Positions 14,079-21,043 of a DNA stretch of 64,000 nucleotides are shown here, one piece after another. Positions within the stretch are counted from its first letter, which is position 1. Each line of letters starts with the position of its first letter. This DNA is from Bradyrhizobium sp. LLZ17 (GTDB lineage: Bacteria; Pseudomonadota; Alphaproteobacteria; Rhizobiales; Xanthobacteraceae). Under the pieces are notes generated by a model that saw nothing but the letters and a program-made list of their open reading frames with translations, was not told where the DNA came from and did no database searches. The stretch lies in the NCBI RefSeq assembly GCF_041200145.1, contig NZ_CP165734.1, positions 6,987,001 through 7,051,000 of the forward strand, given 5' to 3'. Made by a program: the position numbers and the translations under genes.

Positions 14079-14124
14079 CGTCTGACGACTTTTGACTGAC
14101 TCGATCTGGCGGCTGGCTCGGTCA

Positions 14125-14241
14125 CCTCTCCCGCTTGCGGGAGAGGTCGGCGCACTTGCGCCGGGTGAGGGCTCTATCCTCTTGGGGAGTCCCACTGCGG
14201 AGACACCCTCACCCCAACCCTCTCCCGCAAGCGGGAGAGGG
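14125..14241. repeat. palindromic repeat, ctctcccgc...gcgggagag family
   Basis: A 22-base palindrome cctctcccgc/gcgggagagg (14125-14146) and a second one at 14218-14241 bracket a segment with gccgggtgagggctc. The same architecture, with divergent arms, recurs at 43606-43750, so this is a dispersed intergenic element. It fills most of the gap before the BlaI-like gene. Confidence 0.75.
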
Positions 14242-14314
14242 AGCGCACCGCCCTCGCAGGTCGCAACGCGCCTCATCAGGGCAGCACGGCGATACTATTC
14301 CAGGTAGAATGCCG

Positions 14315-14356
14315 TTGCGCGGCACGATCCTATATGCGACGATCTGTAGCATACGA
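14315..14356 (+). promoter_or_regulatory. promoter with candidate BlaI-type operator before the blaI-like gene
   Basis: Candidate -35 ttgcgc (14315-14320), extended -10 tg-c-gacgat (14335-14343) and, immediately downstream, gtagcatacg (14346-14355). The same ten bases stand at exactly the same distance (31) from a ttgcaa -35 in front of the DUF1800 gene. The arms gta/tac around gca form a short dyad, as expected for a BlaI-type dimer site overlapping the transcription start. The operator role is inferred. Confidence 0.55.
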
Positions 14357-14382
14357 GAACTCAAGCTGCTGGGTAGGCCACC

Positions 14383-14774
14383 ATGGACGATCGTTTGCCC
14401 GACCTGGGCGACCTCGAGCACGAGGTCATGCAACTGGTTTGGGCCCATGGTCCGGTGACGGCCGAGGTCGTGCGCGAGCGGCTGTCGCGGCCGCTGAAGG
14501 ATCGACCGTGCGCACGGTGCTGCGCCGGCTGGAAGAAAAGGGCTATGCGAACCACACCGTGGACGGTCGAACCTATGTCTACCACGCTGCCGAACCACGG
14601 GCGCAGGTCGCGGCCAAGGCGGTGCAGCGGATTGTCGACTGGTTCTGCAACGGCTCGATGGAAGAGGTCCTTGTCGGCATGGTCGACAACGCGATGCTCG
14701 ACCAGCAGCAATTGCGCACACTGGCCGACCAGGTCGCCAAGGCGAAGAAGGCGAGGGGAGTGAAGAAAGAATGA
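14383..14774 (+). pseudogene. BlaI/MecI/CopY-family transcriptional repressor, frameshifted
   Basis: Winged-helix repressor normally released when its partner M56 protease is activated. The first 40 codons from ATG 14383 read MDDRLPDLGDLEHEVMQLVW...PVTAEVVRERL; the continuation STVRTVLRRLEEKGYANHTVDGRTYVYHA is in another frame up to the TGA 14772-14774. Inserting one t at about 14502 (gat-tcg where the sequence has gatcg) restores a continuous protein of about 130 residues, the usual BlaI size. Its stop overlaps the ATG of the M56 gene, as in blaI-blaR1 operons. The single missing base may be a sequencing error. Confidence 0.85.
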
Positions 14775-17290
14775 TCGCAACTCTGGCTGAGGCGGCGCTA
14801 CGCTCCTTCGTGCTGGGAGGCGTCGTCTGGTTCGGTCTCAACCTGTTTCGGGTGCGCAATCCGCACGTCCATATGACGGCGTGGGTCGTCGTGCTGCTGG
14901 CATCGCTGGCGATGCCTTTCGTGATGCATTGGCCGACGCTCACGGTCGATCGCCTGCCCCTGTCCCTGCCGATGGCGGACGAACTCTGGCCGGCCGATAT
15001 GTCGATGCTGGAGGCGCCGCAGCCGGCCTTGCCGGTTGCCCCCAGCACTGCCGTCGCGCTGCCGGTGAAAAGCGGTCCCTCGGTCCATTGGGGGTTGGTG
15101 GCGACGATCGTCTACGCCGGCGTCGCCTGCTTGCTGCTGCTGCGGCTGGCAATTGGCCTTTGCCTGACCTGGCGCCTGGCACGCGCGGCGAAGCCGATGC
15201 AGGCTCCGCACATGATCGATGCCGATGTTCGCGTCAGCCGCGACGTCGGCGGCCCCGTCACCTTCGGCTCGACCATTCTGGTGCCGCCGCAATTTTTCGG
15301 CTGGGACGCGAAAAAGCGCCTCGCAGTGCTCGCGCATGAGGGCGCGCATGTCGCCAACGGTGATTTCTACGTCCTGCTGCTTGCCTCGCTCAACCGCGTG
15401 GTGTTCTGGTTCAGCCCGTTCTCGTGGTGGCAGCTCGCGCATCTGGCCGAGCTTGCCGAGATCATCAGCGATGCCCAGGCGATCGAGGTGATCGAGGACC
15501 GGCTGTCCTATGCCGAAATCCTGCTCGACGTCGCAACCTCGGTGAAGCCGCGACCGATGGAGCTCGCGATGGCGCGGGTCGCGACCGTGCGTGCCCGCGT
15601 CGAGCGCATCATCACGGCCGCTGCGCTGCCCGTTGCCGTCGGTTGGCGCAAACGGCTGTGGATCGCGGCGGCGATCGTGCCGGTCGTCATCGTCTCCACC
15701 GGCATGATCGCCTATCGCACGCCGGACCCGGCGCCGTTCGCAACAAATCTCGGTGAAGAGCCGGCGCAGCATTATCGTCCGTTCGTCAATTTCTACGCCA
15801 TGGGGCCCGCCTCGGTGTTCGCCGTCTTCCGCGACGGCGACGAGCTCTACGGCCAGCTCACCGGACAGCGCAAGCTGCGCCTGTCGATCGGCAATGACGG
15901 CACGGCCTCCTATGCGGGTTGGTTCGGCGAGATCACGTTCCCGCTCGATGCGGAGCGCAGATCCCCCGAGCTGATGCTGCATATGAACGGCCGCGACGTG
16001 CGCGCGGTGCGCGTTGCGAAAATGCCGCTGCCGGCCGCGGACCCGACCTCGCTCGATCAATATGCGGGCTGGTACAGGATCGCGCCCAACCGCGTGCTCA
16101 CCGTGCGCAGCGACGGCGATCGTCTGCAAGTGCAGGAAACCGGGCAGGGCGGATCGCAGGTTCTCGCCGAGGGCGCCGATGCGTTTTCCGTGCACGGCGA
16201 TCATCTCCTGATCTTCCTGCGCGACGAGCAAGCCAGAGTGTCGCGCGTGCTGGTCCACAGCGAGGTCTTCGGCGCGCGACTCGCACCGCGGATCGACGCA
16301 GCCGTGGCTCAGGCGGTCGAGGCCGACTTCGCCCGCCGCCTCGCCGAAGTTCCGGATCGATTCCGCGAGCAGGTCCCGGCCGCGGGCGGCAAGGAGATGA
16401 TCTTGCGCGGCATCGAGGACCTGCGCGCCGGCACGCCGAGCTACGATCGCATGAGCGCGCCGCTCGCCGCCAAGATCCACGGCCAGCTCGAGCAATTGCA
16501 CGCGACATTCGTCGCACTCGGCGCGATCGAGTCGATCTTCTTCCGCGGCGTCGGCCCCGGCGGCTATGACATCTACGGCGCGAAGTTCGCGAACGGTACG
16601 GCGGAATTCCGTCTGCTGCTCGAGCCCGACGGCAAGGCCGGCGACGTGACCTTCCGTGCCGACGGCAATGACGAACTCGGCGGCATCATGCCTTGCTCGG
16701 AGCAGGCGAACCTGCGCGGCCGCGCCGGCACCTCGCCGATCAGGATCATGGTCTATAACGAGCTGGGCGAGGACATCCAGGTCTTCAATCTCGACGCGGA
16801 CGGCAACCGCAAGACGCAGAGCGTGGTCAGGCCCAACATGAGCTGGGCCTCCCTGACCACCGTGAACGATCCCTGGGTGATCGCCGACAAGTCGGGACGT
16901 TGCCTCGAGGTCCTGGTGCCGGGCCGGCAGACCCGTTTCCACAATGTCGAGGCTTCGAGTCTCGGCGCGCGGCCGGGGCGCGCGGCACGGCGCGCCGTTC
17001 CGATCGCCAACGGCGAGGAGATGTTGCGGAGCTACATCGAAAGCGTCGGCAGGGGCCAGCCGGACTACGAGCGCATGACGTCGGAGGTCGCCGACATCAC
17101 GCGTCAGCAGCTTCCGTTCGACCAGGCGATCCTGACGCGGCTCGGCGCGTTGCGCGCGATTTCGTTCCGTGGCGTCACCGCGCTCGACAGCGACATCTAC
17201 ATCGCCCAGTTCGCCAACGGGTCGGCGGAGTGGCGCATCGGCGTCAGGAACGGCACCATCACCAAGATCGCGCTGGGGCCGAATTTCTAG
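14771..17290 (+). CDS. BlaR1-like M56 membrane metalloprotease with a VHL-beta-like C-terminal region
   Basis: Inner-membrane sensor protease of 839 residues. Membrane segments lie at about 11-28, 36-54, 106-133 and 295-315. The zinc motif HEGAH (HExxH) is at 189-193, and EIISDAQ with Glu230 looks like the third ligand (compare AEIACD in BlaR1). Instead of a penicillin-binding sensor domain, the region after residue 320 holds a beta-rich part with a lipocalin/DUF3471-like YAGWYRIAPNRVLTVRSDGDRL (431-452), then a 75-residue unit seen twice (541-617 and 748-825; shared features PxYxRM, FRGV, DIYxAxFANG, AExR). Between the copies lies a segment (about 654-722) resembling the beta domain of von Hippel-Lindau protein (VYNELGEDIQVFNLDADGN, PWVIADKSGRCLEVLVPG). 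ATGA overlap with the BlaI-like gene. Confidence 0.85.
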   Translation: MIATLAEAALRSFVLGGVVWFGLNLFRVRNPHVHMTAWVVVLLASLAMPFVMHWPTLTVDRLPLSLPMADELWPADMSMLEAPQPALPVAPSTAVALPVKSGPSVHWGLVATIVYAGVACLLLLRLAIGLCLTWRLARAAKPMQAPHMIDADVRVSRDVGGPVTFGSTILVPPQFFGWDAKKRLAVLAHEGAHVANGDFYVLLLASLNRVVFWFSPFSWWQLAHLAELAEIISDAQAIEVIEDRLSYAEILLDVATSVKPRPMELAMARVATVRARVERIITAAALPVAVGWRKRLWIAAAIVPVVIVSTGMIAYRTPDPAPFATNLGEEPAQHYRPFVNFYAMGPASVFAVFRDGDELYGQLTGQRKLRLSIGNDGTASYAGWFGEITFPLDAERRSPELMLHMNGRDVRAVRVAKMPLPAADPTSLDQYAGWYRIAPNRVLTVRSDGDRLQVQETGQGGSQVLAEGADAFSVHGDHLLIFLRDEQARVSRVLVHSEVFGARLAPRIDAAVAQAVEADFARRLAEVPDRFREQVPAAGGKEMILRGIEDLRAGTPSYDRMSAPLAAKIHGQLEQLHATFVALGAIESIFFRGVGPGGYDIYGAKFANGTAEFRLLLEPDGKAGDVTFRADGNDELGGIMPCSEQANLRGRAGTSPIRIMVYNELGEDIQVFNLDADGNRKTQSVVRPNMSWASLTTVNDPWVIADKSGRCLEVLVPGRQTRFHNVEASSLGARPGRAARRAVPIANGEEMLRSYIESVGRGQPDYERMTSEVADITRQQLPFDQAILTRLGALRAISFRGVTALDSDIYIAQFANGSAEWRIGVRNGTITKIALGPNF

Positions 17291-17348
17291 GCCTCTCCCG
17301 CGCATGCGCTGGATTACGGATGCGCGTTCGATCGGCTTCAATCTCCGC

Positions 17349-17391
17349 TTGCAAAGGCCTGGCTCAAGTGTTACGTTCCGTAGCATACGGA
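17349..17391 (+). promoter_or_regulatory. promoter with candidate BlaI-type operator before the DUF1800 gene
   Basis: Candidate -35 ttgcaa (17349-17354), extended -10 tg-t-tacgtt (17369-17377) and a perfect 15-base dyad tccgta-gca-tacgga (17377-17391). Its core gtagcatacg matches the site in front of the BlaI-like gene base for base and at the same spacing from the -35. This places the DUF1800-DUF1501 unit under the same repressor, by inference. Confidence 0.55.
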
Positions 17392-17452
17392 TCGTAGCTT
17401 GATGCGGCGACGTCGGCCGCCGTCGGACTGCTGGAAGAATCGGGCGTTCGTC

Positions 17453-18910
17453 ATGAGCAATTCCGCAAAGGCCGAGGCCGTGCTGGCGCTTCATCGTTTC
17501 GGGATGGGGCCGCGACCCGGTTCGATTGCTGCCGTCGGGGGCGACCCGCGCGGCGCGCTGATTGCCGAGCTCGATCGGCCGCTGGTGCTGACCGCTGCGG
17601 CCAGCCTGCCTTCCAGCGCGAAAGCCTATCGCACCGTGGCCGACGCCAACGCACGGCGAGCGGCGCGTGCCAAGCAGGCCCAGCTGCAGGCAAAGAAGCA
17701 GCAGGCGGCTGCGACGCCGATGATGTCGGAAGACCAAACGCAAGGGCAGGCCCCGGGCGCCGAGAAGGACGCCGCGGCGATGGCGGCCAAGCAGGCCGCC
17801 GAAGCCGTTCCCGATCCCGGACGGCCGATCTATTTGCAGGAAGCCAAGCTGCGCATCGAAGCCGCGCTCGGCGCGGACATCGGCTTCGCCGAACGGCTGG
17901 TGTGGTTCTGGTCCAATCATTTCTGCATCTCGGCCTACAAGATCCAGAGCATGTCGGGTGCCTACGAGCGCGAGGCGGTTCGCGCCAATGCGCTCGGCCG
18001 CTTCGCCGATCTGCTTCAGGCGGTCGAGGGCCATCCGGCGATGCTGTTCTATCTCGACAATCTCGGCTCGATGGGCGCGAACTCGATTGCGGGCATCAAC
18101 CGCAACCGCGGGCTCAACGAAAACATTGCGCGCGAGATCATGGAGCTGCACACGCTCGGTGTTCGCGCCGGCTACACCCAGGACGACGTGATCAGCTTCG
18201 CCAATGTGTTGACGGGATGGACGCTCGTGCCACCCGGCGTCAATCCCGAGCACGGCGGCGAGTTCACCTTCAACCCGCGGCTTCACGAGCCCGGCGGGCA
18301 GACGGTCCTCGGCAAGCGCTACGAGCAGGAGGACGTCGAGCAGGGCCGTGCCGTGCTGCGCGACCTTGCCGCACATCCGGCGACCGCGACCCATGTCGCG
18401 ACCAAGCTCGCACGGCATTTCGTGGCCGACGAGCCGCCTCCGGCCCTGGTCGAACACATGGCAGAGACGTTTCGCGACACCGGCGGCGATCTCAAGCAGG
18501 TCGCGATTGCGATGGTCTCGTCGGACGACGCGTGGCGCGTGCCGCCGTCAAAACTCAAGCGTCCGGGCGAATGGGGCGTAGGCATGGTGCGCGCGACCGG
18601 CCTCAGGGAGGTCGATCCCGCACTCTTCACCGGGGCCCAGGACCTGCTCGGCGAGGGACTGTGGCGCCCGTCGGCGCCCAAGGGCTTTCCCGACGACGAG
18701 GCCAGCTGGATCGACGGCATTGGCCGGCGGCTCGACATCGCCAACAATTTTGCCGAGCGCGTGGCGGCCACCGCGGATCCGCAGGTGATCATCGAGGATG
18801 TCTTCGCATCCGAGATCACAGCAGAGGTGAAGCAGGCGGTCGGTCGCGCCGAGAGCCGGCAGCAGGCGCTGGCGTTGTTGTTCATGTCGGCGGATTTTCA
18901 GAGGAGGTGA
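17453..18910 (+). CDS. DUF1800 domain-containing protein
   Basis: Protein of 485 residues from ATG 17453; in-frame starts at 17399 (TTG) and 17402 (ATG) would add a basic, low-complexity N-terminus and sit only some 15 bases after the predicted transcription start. The DUF1800 opening LALHRFGMGPRPG is at 11-23; FWSNHF (152-157), LNENIAREIMELHTLGV and YTQDDVISFANVLTGW follow. Residues 65-118 are an Ala/Gln/Lys-rich, probably unstructured insertion. There is no signal peptide. DUF1800 genes are habitually followed by a DUF1501 gene, as here (TGA, then ATG three bases later). The function of the family is not established. Confidence 0.9.
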   Translation: MSNSAKAEAVLALHRFGMGPRPGSIAAVGGDPRGALIAELDRPLVLTAAASLPSSAKAYRTVADANARRAARAKQAQLQAKKQQAAATPMMSEDQTQGQAPGAEKDAAAMAAKQAAEAVPDPGRPIYLQEAKLRIEAALGADIGFAERLVWFWSNHFCISAYKIQSMSGAYEREAVRANALGRFADLLQAVEGHPAMLFYLDNLGSMGANSIAGINRNRGLNENIAREIMELHTLGVRAGYTQDDVISFANVLTGWTLVPPGVNPEHGGEFTFNPRLHEPGGQTVLGKRYEQEDVEQGRAVLRDLAAHPATATHVATKLARHFVADEPPPALVEHMAETFRDTGGDLKQVAIAMVSSDDAWRVPPSKLKRPGEWGVGMVRATGLREVDPALFTGAQDLLGEGLWRPSAPKGFPDDEASWIDGIGRRLDIANNFAERVAATADPQVIIEDVFASEITAEVKQAVGRAESRQQALALLFMSADFQRR

Positions 18911-18912
18911 GC

Positions 18913-20163
18913 ATGGGCGTCGCCAATCATTTGCCCACGCGGCGCGAACTTCTGGTCGGCTCCGGCGCGCTGTTTGCGTGGAGCCAGATGCCGCGGCTCG
19001 CACGCGCCGAAGGGCGTGATCCGCGCCTGCTCGTCATCGTCCTGCGCGGCGCGCTCGACGGCCTTGGTGCGGTCGCGCCGGTCGGTGATCCCGACTGGAT
19101 CTCGCTGCGCGGCGATGGCGCGCTGACGCTGGACGGCAAGGCGCCGGCGCTGCCGCTCGATGCCTTCTTTGCGCTCAATCCGGCGATGCCGAACCTGCAC
19201 CGGCTCTACAAGACCGGCAAGGCCTCGATCGTTCATGCCACAGCGACGCCCTATCGCGAGCGCTCGCATTTCGACGGCCAGGACGTGCTGGAGAGCGGAT
19301 TCACCAAGCCCGGCGCGACCTCCTCGGGATGGCTCAACCGCGCGCTGCTCGCACTGGAGTCGGGCGGGCGCGTCGACCCGCGCGGCAGCCGCGCGCTCGG
19401 CATCGGCGCGGTGACGCCGCTGGTGGTGCGCGGTACCGCGCCGGTGATGACATGGGTGCCGCAAAAACTGCTGCCGGCGAGCGAGGACACCCAGAGCCGC
19501 CTGCTCGATCTCTACCAACACACCGACCCGAAGCTCGCGACCGTGCTTCAGGCGCGCATCAAGCTTGCCTCGCTCGCCGGTGCGCCCGGCACCGGCGATC
19601 CGATGTCGGACGATCCGACCTTGATGCCGCCCGGCATCGAGCGTGTGCGCGCCTATTTCGCCGAAGCCGCGGGCACCGCGGCGCGCTATCTCGCCAAGCC
19701 CGACGGCCCGCGCGTCGGCGCCATGGGCTTCGTCGGCTGGGACACGCATATCGCGGAAGGTGCTGCGTCAGGCCAGCTCTACAATCTGCTCGGGGCGCTC
19801 GACGGTGCCTTTGCCGCGATCGAAAAGAATATGGGCGAGGCCTGGGGCGAGACGGTCGTCGCGGTCGTCACCGAGTTCGGCCGCACCGCGCGCATCAACG
19901 GCACGCAAGGCACCGACCACGGCACCGGCACGGTCGCCTTCCTCATCGGCGGCGCGCTCGCCGGCGGCCGCGTGATCGCGGACTGGCCGGGACTGAAATC
20001 GGCGCAGCTGTTCGAGGACCGCGATCTCAAGCCGACCACCGATCTTCGCGCAGTGCTGAAAGGCCTGCTGCGGGATCATCTGCGCGTCGAGGAGAAGGTG
20101 CTCGCCGAAACGGTCTTCCCCGGCAGCGCGGACGTCAAAGCGATCGGCGGCCTCGTCGGCTGA
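18913..20163 (+). CDS. DUF1501 domain-containing protein with twin-arginine-type leader
   Basis: Protein of 416 residues. The N-terminus PTRRELLVGSGALFAWSQMPRLARAEG carries a twin-arginine pair at residues 10-11, a hydrophobic stretch and an Ala-x-Ala-like end, so Tat export of a folded protein is likely. The body has sulfatase/alkaline-phosphatase-like DUF1501 features: VIVLRGALDGLGAVAP, HATATPYRERSHFDGQDVLESG, GWDTH, VAVVTEFGRTARINGTQGTDHGTGTVAFLIGG. Ribosome site gaggagg precedes ATG 18913. It forms a two-gene unit with the DUF1800 gene. The reaction is unknown. Confidence 0.9.
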   Translation: MGVANHLPTRRELLVGSGALFAWSQMPRLARAEGRDPRLLVIVLRGALDGLGAVAPVGDPDWISLRGDGALTLDGKAPALPLDAFFALNPAMPNLHRLYKTGKASIVHATATPYRERSHFDGQDVLESGFTKPGATSSGWLNRALLALESGGRVDPRGSRALGIGAVTPLVVRGTAPVMTWVPQKLLPASEDTQSRLLDLYQHTDPKLATVLQARIKLASLAGAPGTGDPMSDDPTLMPPGIERVRAYFAEAAGTAARYLAKPDGPRVGAMGFVGWDTHIAEGAASGQLYNLLGALDGAFAAIEKNMGEAWGETVVAVVTEFGRTARINGTQGTDHGTGTVAFLIGGALAGGRVIADWPGLKSAQLFEDRDLKPTTDLRAVLKGLLRDHLRVEEKVLAETVFPGSADVKAIGGLVG

Positions 20164-20190: not shown

Positions 20191-20358
20191 ATGATGTGCA
20201 CACTGACGCAACGGGAGCTCGACTTTCTCGCCAGCCTGACAACGGGCTGGCGGCGGCTCTATCGGCGCGAGCTCATGCGGCTCCTGAAGGGCGACATCAG
20301 GACCGGTGAGGCTCAGTCGGACGGGCGCCCGATCATCTGGCGCATCGTATCGGGCTGA
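20191..20358 (+). CDS. possible small protein, 55 residues
   Basis: Frame from ATG 20191 (second ATG directly after) to TGA 20358: MMCTLTQRELDFLASLTTGW..., rich in Arg and Leu, ending IIWRIVSG. It lies 27 bases after the DUF1501 gene, without a strong ribosome site. A helix-forming composition makes it plausible, but I recognise no family. It is the only candidate gene in the 346-base gap before the RlpA-like gene. Confidence 0.35.
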   Translation: MMCTLTQRELDFLASLTTGWRRLYRRELMRLLKGDIRTGEAQSDGRPIIWRIVSG

Positions 20359-20509
20359 TTTTCGCAAGGTTGTCCCGATCCAGGACATGCGACTGTGGTG
20401 GAATCGCCACAGCCGGCGCGAAACGATGGTGGCCCTAAGGCCGCTTTTGTTCAGCCAAGGTTCTGCCCTCATTGCCCACCGAAACTCCGGGTTGTTCGGA
20501 GGGCGCATC

Positions 20510-21043
20510 ATGTCTCGCTTCGCACGTGCCGAAACTGCCCGGATTTGCCTTGCAACCTCGTGCCGCCAATCGGCCCGGCTGCTGCTCGCGATCGTCGCCG
20601 CGGCATCGCTCGCGGCCTGCGCCCAATCGCCGGTCGGCCGCCAGAAGGCCGATCTGGTCGGCACCAGCAGGCAGGCGGTGATCGAGCGTCCGCACAGGGT
20701 GGCGGCGCTGCATCCGCGGCCGATCCACCGGGCGCGTCCGTCCGATGATGCAGGAAGCATGCAGACGGCCTCGCGAGGCGTTGCCAGCTTCTATTCGGAT
20801 ACGGAGACCGCCAGCGGCGAGAGGTTCGACAAGAACGAACTGACCGCGGCCCATCCGACGCTGCCGTTCGGCACAAAGCTGCGCGTCACCGATGTCTCGT
20901 CCGGCCGCTTCGTCACCGTCAGAGTCAACGATCGCGGACCCTATGTCCGCGGCCGCGTGGTCGACATCTCTCCGTCCGCGGCCGAGGCTCTTGGCATGGT
21001 GGACAGGGGCGTCGCCAATGTCAGGCTCGACGTCGTGCAATAG
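20510..21043 (+). CDS. RlpA-like lipoprotein (septal ring / DPBB domain)
   Basis: Lipoprotein of 177 residues. From ATG 20510 the signal sequence ends in a lipobox LAAC with Cys37. After a basic linker, the double-psi beta-barrel spans about residues 88-177: GVASFYSDTETASGERFDKNELTAAHPTLPFGTKLRVTD, then VRVNDRGPYVRGRVVDIS, ending LGMVDRGVANVRLDVV. RlpA proteins are outer-membrane lipoproteins, some of which cleave peptidoglycan strands lacking stem peptides. No SPOR domain is present. An in-frame extension to 20306 has no signal sequence and is ignored. Confidence 0.88.
   Translation: MSRFARAETARICLATSCRQSARLLLAIVAAASLAACAQSPVGRQKADLVGTSRQAVIERPHRVAALHPRPIHRARPSDDAGSMQTASRGVASFYSDTETASGERFDKNELTAAHPTLPFGTKLRVTDVSSGRFVTVRVNDRGPYVRGRVVDISPSAAEALGMVDRGVANVRLDVVQ

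Follow-up and report, generated by a model that had tools for sequence, protein, structure and literature searches.

A predicted BlaI-type operator common to a blaI-M56 pair and a DUF1800-DUF1501 pair in Bradyrhizobium

Two neighbouring units and their promoters

The 64,000-nucleotide stretch of Bradyrhizobium sp. LLZ17 DNA analysed here (the window) carries genes for a BlaI/MecI family protein and an M56 membrane protease, followed by genes for a DUF1800 and a DUF1501 protein. The features are the following.

14315..14320, + strand: -35 TTGCGC of the blaI promoter, whose TTG is conserved among the aligned upstream regions of blaI
14334..14352, + strand: predicted operator dyad 1, ATGCGAC-N5-GTAGCAT (promoter comparison)
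14383..14502, + strand: 5' part of blaI, BlaI/MecI family, residues 1-40 (Pfam Penicillinase_R, 30.5 bits)
14502..14774, + strand: 3' part of blaI in a different frame (Pfam Penicillinase_R, 60.8 bits)
14771..17290, + strand: M56 (BlaR1-type) membrane protease (Pfam, alignment, model and fold search)
17349..17354, + strand: -35 TTGCAA of the DUF1800 promoter (promoter comparison)
17368..17386, + strand: predicted operator dyad 2a, GTGTTAC-N5-GTAGCAT (promoter comparison)
17386..17398, + strand: predicted operator dyad 2b, TAC-N5-GTAGC, in tandem with 2a (a second TAC-N5-GT in 38 of 39 loci)
17453..18910, + strand: DUF1800 protein (Pfam PF08811, 383 bits)
18931..20163, + strand: DUF1501 protein (Pfam PF07394, 98 bits), with a twin-arginine-type leader recognised by eye

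A preliminary description of this DNA had placed both units under one repressor acting at a shared core, gtagcatacg. The two copies were borne out: GTAGCATACG is found at 14346-14355 and 17380-17389 and nowhere else in the window even when one mismatch is allowed, a count unremarkable by itself because shuffles of the window averaged 1.5 matches at one mismatch. Each core lies 31 bases downstream of TTGC (14315 and 17349) and directly behind the TG of an extended -10 (14335 and 17369), as had been described. The likeness of the promoters from this TG through the core also stood, with 17 of 21 positions agreeing on recount instead of 16.

What has been kept across the genus is a dyad of 19 bp, RTGYKAC-N5-GTARCRY, that begins upstream of the core and overlies the extended -10, the -35 being located seventeen bases upstream. 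Dyad 1 covers the extended -10 GACGAT (14338-14343) and the expected blaI-M56 start site, and dyad 2a covers the extended -10 TACGTT (17372-17377). The 17-bp spacer between -35 and -10 is present in 50 of the 56 blaI loci matched by the spacer regular expression (58 examined) and in 38 of 39 DUF1800 loci. Tandem dyads precede DUF1800 in 38 of 39 loci, where the second TAC-N5-GT comes at 4-base spacing; the 39th is the variant of the window genome, the only one with a spacing of 3. The perfect 15-base dyad TCCGTAGCATACGGA pointed out at 17377-17391 is present but does not stand as a conserved operator: it is the junction of the two tandem dyads in a form unique to the window genome, and GTANNNTAC is missing from the promoters of 29 other loci (L005-L033).

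The literal core was likewise rejected as a regulon motif. A genome-wide search found CNGTAGCATACG three times in the 7.80-Mb genome, no more often than its reversed control (also 3), so that the string taken alone does not mark a regulon, and it occurs in 0 of 57 other loci (L005-L061) and 0 of 54 named loci. Its third copy (L001, C1:3505393) lacks the left half of the dyad, as judged by eye, and is flanked by genes of unrelated kinds. What is conserved upstream of the relatives' genes is the dyad, not gtagcatacg as such.

Co-occurrence of the dyad with blaI and DUF1800

The strict pattern RTGYKAC-N5-GTARCRYTAC is present in 56 of the 58 genus genomes that encode this BlaI, the misses being the window genome and G130, against none of the 88 without it; its reversed control matched 13 and 36 of them, respectively. 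The palindrome form occurs in 52/58 and 2/88 genomes, and 56 of 58 regions upstream of blaI contain the relaxed core. These counts are not independent because the genomes are related, and the patterns were derived from the same genomes that were later scored. Four of the 88 genomes encode a more distant BlaI whose own dyad falls outside the strict pattern. A G052 site lying across a coding start was regarded as a chance match; the palindromic sites of G018 and G063 come from a repeat search run with four BlaI genomes lacking a palindrome match, and that of G093 lies in locus L029.

At the promoter of blaI itself the dyad is present in all 51 named loci containing the upstream region (52 of 54 named loci were scored, leaving out L213 and L214; L062 of G012 was excluded from the promoter tables because its BlaI match is weak). 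Downstream of the -10, the sequence of the dyad shows strong conservation in tens of species. The dyad also precedes more distant BlaI-M56 pairs (L058-L061, BlaI 63-66% identical) and is found at the blaI promoter of G034, G140 and G074, in which the M56 orthologue is partial or not found.

A DUF1800 orthologue (at least 72%) is encoded by 44 of 55 M56-A genomes versus 0 of 91 others; it is not obligatory, since 11 of the 55 lack it. All 44 have the dyad ahead of DUF1800, 39 by promoter comparison and five (G122, G087, G064, G046, G089) by coordinates, the fragmented M56 locus of G089 having been left out of the fetched loci. The sole clearly displaced DUF1800 was found in G064, where the DUF1800-DUF1501 pair has moved away from blaI-M56, is preceded by over 5 kb of other genes free of N, and has retained its dyad; the M56 gene of this genome stops at a 10-N scaffold gap. 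G046 was rejected as a further case: the run of 3,122 N between its malic enzyme and DUF1800 genes is an assembly gap, very likely filled by a 3,264-base blaI-M56 contig. By sequence comparison the dyad is thus well supported as a conserved repressor-type site common to blaI-M56 and DUF1800-DUF1501. The earlier idea of one repressor for both units is likewise well supported, the dyad being kept ahead of both and tracking blaI.

Unlinked genes preceded by the dyad

Outside the two units, 28 of 29 fetched palindromic sites precede an assigned gene: 17 an amidase, 5 a beta-lactamase family protein, 4 an RND adaptor, 1 an S9 peptidase and 1 a Peptidase_MA-like protein, classes that were checked by Pfam on representatives, with the Peptidase_MA match under cut-off. 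One beta-lactamase-family target reaches 98.6 bits against a class C model, under its cut-off of 415. No target was assigned to sites in G021, G145 and G111:C83, and one in G063:C87 is ambiguous. The window genome has two unlinked dyads, both perfect, ahead of an amidase and a beta-lactamase-fold gene. Amidase orthologues carry the dyad in 20 of 38 BlaI genomes versus 1 of 11 without BlaI (Fisher p about 0.01, a value that ignores relatedness); the other 18 of the 38 do not, including G071 with 11 of 14 positions, and G125 has the amidase dyad and no BlaI match. The regulon appears wider than first described, extending to unlinked genes for the amidase, beta-lactamase-fold hydrolases, S9 peptidase and RND adaptor. 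This predicted multi-locus BlaI-type regulon is new; among the matches listed there was no published work on it or on BlaI in Bradyrhizobium.

Repressor, sensor and proposed switch

The blaI frame is broken near 14502 in the window genome and is single in the relatives examined. The nearest relative codes an intact 130-residue BlaI (P0241). The BlaI of a relative has the Penicillinase_R winged-helix domain (101 bits, cut-off 22.6). The M56 protein is 99% identical to that of Bradyrhizobium sp. RDM4 (P0001). It has the HEGAH motif of an HExxH zinc protease and the N-terminal part of its model matches BlaR1 in fold search. Its score against the NCBIfam BlaR1 equivalog is 24.7 bits (cut-off 400). 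The periplasmic part contains DUF3471. Pfam recognised no penicillin-binding domain in the protein and found 0 families in each of three periplasmic pieces; the VHL-like piece gave 0 matches when compared by sequence with the PDB, and fold searches with the model showed no penicillin-binding domain among the 50 matches listed, which is not evidence of absence. Among 297 genomes at order level, the full-length M56 form was found in genus members only. A Tardiphaga protein (P0188) is listed at 58% identity to the genus M56 query. The listed proteins also include BRADO3726 (P0126), the M56 protein of Bradyrhizobium sp. ORS 278.

The sequences show the dyad and its place in the promoter, how it is conserved, that it co-occurs with blaI and which unlinked genes it precedes. 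We infer that BlaI binds the dyads as a repressor and that M56 triggers proteolytic relief, which would switch blaI-M56, DUF1800-DUF1501 and unlinked genes together (probability about 0.8). A BlaI-family dimer would bind the inverted repeats RTGYKAC-N5-GTARCRY. The predicted operators, two in tandem in the case of DUF1800-DUF1501, would overlie the extended -10 and the transcription start of each unit, and RNA polymerase would therefore be kept off. Sensing of a signal by the M56 periplasmic domain would cause BlaI to be lost, turning on the two units along with a variable unlinked set (amidase, beta-lactamase-fold hydrolases, S9 peptidase, RND efflux adaptor). The response would most likely be to an envelope-active or amide/peptide-type compound. 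We suggest tentatively, at clearly less than even odds, that beta-lactamase-accessory barrels and a VHL-beta-like module have taken the place of the penicillin-binding domain in the sensor. It would then respond to a ligand other than a beta-lactam, such as D-amino-acid or peptide/amide compounds originating in cell walls, competitors or the plant, and would control a dedicated set of genes for amidase, peptidase, S12-type hydrolase, efflux and DUF1800/DUF1501 proteins.

A resemblance of the two promoters by chance, or as common sigma70-type promoters, would agree with the equal genome counts of the literal 10-mer and its control; it is contradicted by the lack of the strict pattern in genomes without this blaI and by the conservation downstream of the -10, and its probability is negligible. 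It is also improbable that a different regulator, inherited together with the blaI locus, occupies the dyad and that BlaI is a bystander. The amidase dyad of G125 fits such a regulator, which would have to be reconciled with the dyad at blaI's own promoter in every named locus containing that region, with its persistence in G034, G140 and G074 and ahead of the distant pairs, and with a five-base spacer that has a BlaI-family precedent (PMC8457756).

An ordinary resistance circuit, with M56 sensing beta-lactams and the regulated PF00144 enzymes acting as beta-lactamases, is less likely than not. Several targets are indeed beta-lactamase-family proteins, one with the class C match under cut-off, and the N-terminal part of the M56 model resembles BlaR1. 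The lack of a penicillin-binding domain match in Pfam and the low equivalog score speak against it, as do the amidase, S9 and DUF1800/DUF1501 genes, which are not known as beta-lactam resistance genes. The earlier statement that the signal is not a beta-lactam stays unproven: no penicillin-binding domain was recognised in the sensor, but many of the regulon's genes code for enzymes of the beta-lactamase fold. In the window strain, whose repressor gene is out of frame, either the circuit may no longer work or the sequence may contain an error. A dead circuit with both operators drifting comes only a little short of an even chance: besides the frame break, both window operators share a one-base shortening unique to this genome among the compared loci, and no second close BlaI was found in it. 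Its amidase and beta-lactamase-fold dyads are nevertheless perfect, a nearly identical strain has the intact BlaI and a sequencing error is possible.

BlaI/BlaR1 is known chiefly as a beta-lactamase switch of Gram-positive bacteria. If BlaI and M56 act together as proposed, a control system like that of penicillin resistance appears to govern a wider gene set, with a BlaI-type operator of defined consensus controlling genes at several loci of a Gram-negative plant symbiont whose sensor is built differently. The DUF1800-DUF1501 pair gains a likely regulator and co-regulated partners, and therefore a direct route to what induces it and what it does. The consensus is tight enough for sequence-based regulon proposals in other species of the genus.

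As in the BlaI/BlaR1 and MecI/MecR1 systems of Staphylococcus and Bacillus licheniformis, repressor and M56 protease are encoded together and dyads, here predicted operators, overlie the promoters of the pair and its targets. The Bradyrhizobium system differs in a sensor without recognised penicillin-binding domain, in the half-site ATGYTAC with a 5-base spacer and in targets that add amidase, S9 peptidase, DUF1800/DUF1501 and RND adaptor to beta-lactamase-fold enzymes. The BlaI orthologue resembles CopY copper repressors through its best NCBIfam match, CopY_TcrY (72.9 bits, under the cut-off of 121.95), but its assigned targets include no copper gene. According to PMC8457756, the DAP-seq motif of Clostridium thermocellum BlaI consists of inverted repeats five nucleotides apart, paired at targets, and single-repeat probes are bound in EMSA. 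BlaI_0696 of that species thus shares the 5-nt-spaced repeats, the dyad pairs and a small autoregulated regulon with Bradyrhizobium, while its half-site is GTCTAT/GACTAT instead of TGCTAC and the regulons there comprise three and one operons with other targets. DUF1800 and DUF1501 genes also travel together beside bacterial chitin synthases, with a Tat leader reported on DUF1501 (PMC5122149); the Bradyrhizobium pair, beside which no chitin synthase happened to be noticed, is distinguished by its predicted BlaI-type operator.

A conserved dyad over the blaI and DUF1800 promoters

Both copies of GTAGCATACG lie in the window where the preliminary description had placed them, each with TTGC 31 bases upstream and the TG of an extended -10 just before it.

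14120-14245, pair of REP-like inverted repeat arms (ctcccgcttgcgggagag type), lying between malic enzyme and blaI
14346-14355, GTAGCATACG before blaI
14383-14774, blaI
17377-17391, 15-base dyad before DUF1800
17380-17389, GTAGCATACG before DUF1800
20306-21043, RlpA-like DPBB protein, downstream of DUF1501

From TG through the core the copies agree as claimed, but at 17 of 21 bases, not 16. The literal 10-mer fails as a rare string and as a regulon marker, since the 7.80-Mb genome holds 3 copies of CNGTAGCATACG and also 3 of the reversed control. The finding holds and reaches further than stated, but not in the literal motif.

The M56 protein served as query against 146 genomes of the genus, and the comparison took in 58 loci: that of the window, 53 further orthologous ones and 4 of a more distant BlaI-M56 subfamily. 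The conserved element is a dyad of half-sites RTGYKAC and GTARCRY with a 5-base spacer, which covers the extended -10 (TGnTACGAT type). Alignment of the compared loci gives the consensus TATATGCGAC-N5-GTAGCGTTACA upstream of blaI and AATGCTAC-N5-GTAGCATTAC-N5-GTAGC upstream of DUF1800. A relaxed dyad core is present in 56 of the 58 blaI upstream regions, the remaining two (L056 and L057) having variants seen by eye; among named loci (54 fetched from GTDB genomes, 52 scored) the blaI dyad occurs in all 51 whose upstream region is covered. The -35 and -10 are 17 bases apart in 50 of the 56 script-matched blaI loci (58 examined) and in 38 of 39 DUF1800 loci. The latter carry tandem dyads, TAC-N5-GTA-N4-TAC-N5-GT, in 38 of 39 cases, the sole exception being the window with a 3-base link; the 15-base dyad described earlier is this link, peculiar to the window. 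In the distant subfamily (L058-L061; BlaI 63-66%) the promoter of the pair itself bears a dyad of the form TGYTAC-N5-GTAACGTTA, and DUF1800 was not seen near these pairs within the stretches examined.

The window blaI is spread over two frames, with a break near 14502. In the relatives examined the gene occupies a single frame, and in a nearly identical strain it encodes an intact protein of 130 residues (P0241). Both window operators show a parallel shortening, unique among the compared loci: ATAC follows GTARC, where [AG][CT]TAC is found at 48 of 56 blaI and 38 of 39 DUF1800 sites. The amidase and hydrolase dyads of the same genome are perfect. Either recent decay or a sequencing error may account for the blaI and operator changes.

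Distribution of the dyad, BlaI and DUF1800 in the genus

A BlaI orthologue (at least 81% identical) is found in 58 of 146 genomes, counting the broken window copy. A strict form of the dyad, RTGYKAC-N5-GTARCRYTAC, is present in 56 of the 58 versus none of the other 88, which include 4 with a more distant BlaI whose own dyad falls outside the pattern. The two misses are G130 and the window genome, the latter because its operator form is shortened. A reversed control pattern also matches often (13/58 versus 36/88), so that the argument rests on the contrast between groups and not on rarity. A palindromic pattern, which omits most blaI sites, gave 52/58 versus 2/88. All co-occurrence counts, those for DUF1800 below included, ignore kinship among genomes, from which the patterns themselves were drawn.

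The DUF1800 orthologue (at least 72%) is present in 44 of 55 genomes with an M56 orthologue versus 0 of 91 others, and is preceded by the dyad in 44/44 (39 fetched loci and 5 by coordinates, in genomes G122, G087, G064, G046 and G089). A DUF1800 paralogue of ~46-52% identity exists in most genomes, BlaI-bearing or not. In G064 the DUF1800-DUF1501 pair lies 7.77 Mb from blaI-M56 by plain coordinates on the same contig, with >5 kb of other genes before it, and the dyad is retained ~50 bases upstream of the displaced start codon; the M56 side stops at a 10-N scaffold gap. G046 was ruled out as a second displacement, its separation being an assembly gap. By likeness, a PF00144-PDZ hydrolase with its own dyad adjoins DUF1800 in G031, and a Tat-type hydrolase stands behind the dyad at the expected place of DUF1800 in G093. 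In several genomes lacking DUF1800-DUF1501 the RlpA-like DPBB gene follows M56, with a dyad remaining ~50-110 bases after M56.

Unlinked candidate targets

Twenty-nine unlinked palindromic sites were fetched, 27 from relatives (one of which lacks BlaI) and 2 from the window genome. The start codon of the assigned gene lies ~35-140 bases downstream at 28 of 29; L116 alone has no assigned gene.

Genes assigned to unlinked sites (names from Pfam on 1-3 representatives per kind, sequence likeness for the rest)
Amidase, 17 sites
Beta-lactamase family, 5 sites
RND periplasmic adaptor, 4 sites
S9 peptidase, 1 site
Peptidase_MA-like, 1 site (Pfam match below cut-off)

Of the two sites in the window genome, C1:4269545 precedes an amidase and C1:4378323 a PF00144-PDZ hydrolase. 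Seven further strict-pattern loci include 3 S9 peptidases and 2 PF00144/DUF3471 hydrolases, those of G021 and G145 having no assigned target; in G145 two dyads without assigned target stand 459 bases apart (C1:6887317 and 6887776; L134, L279). Two more palindromes precede the amidase (G018, G063), and for another in G063 no target was resolved.

Among 49 genomes with an amidase orthologue (at least 78%), a dyad matching 13 or 14 of 14 positions lies upstream in 20 of 38 with BlaI versus 1 of 11 without (p ~0.01), the latter being G125 (L111), with a perfect dyad and no BlaI found. The orthologue lacks the dyad in 18 of the 38 BlaI genomes, thus regulon membership is variable.

Putative mechanism and signal

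The sequences point to a genus-wide BlaI-type regulon: a repressor-like site overlies the core promoter, the geometry is that of autoregulation, and there are unlinked targets. Going by what is established for BlaI/BlaR1, BlaI dimers would block the polymerase and signal-activated M56 would lead to their loss. The amidase, S9, S12-type hydrolase and efflux targets suggest that the regulon deals with a compound of amide, peptide or lactam type, and the earlier statement that the signal is not a beta-lactam is not sustained as worded. The BlaI motif described for Clostridium thermocellum likewise consists of inverted repeats five nucleotides apart, paired at targets (PMC8457756). For Bacillus licheniformis, a peptidoglycan dipeptide is described to release BlaI from its operator (PMC3305447), which by analogy makes an envelope signal plausible for the Bradyrhizobium system.
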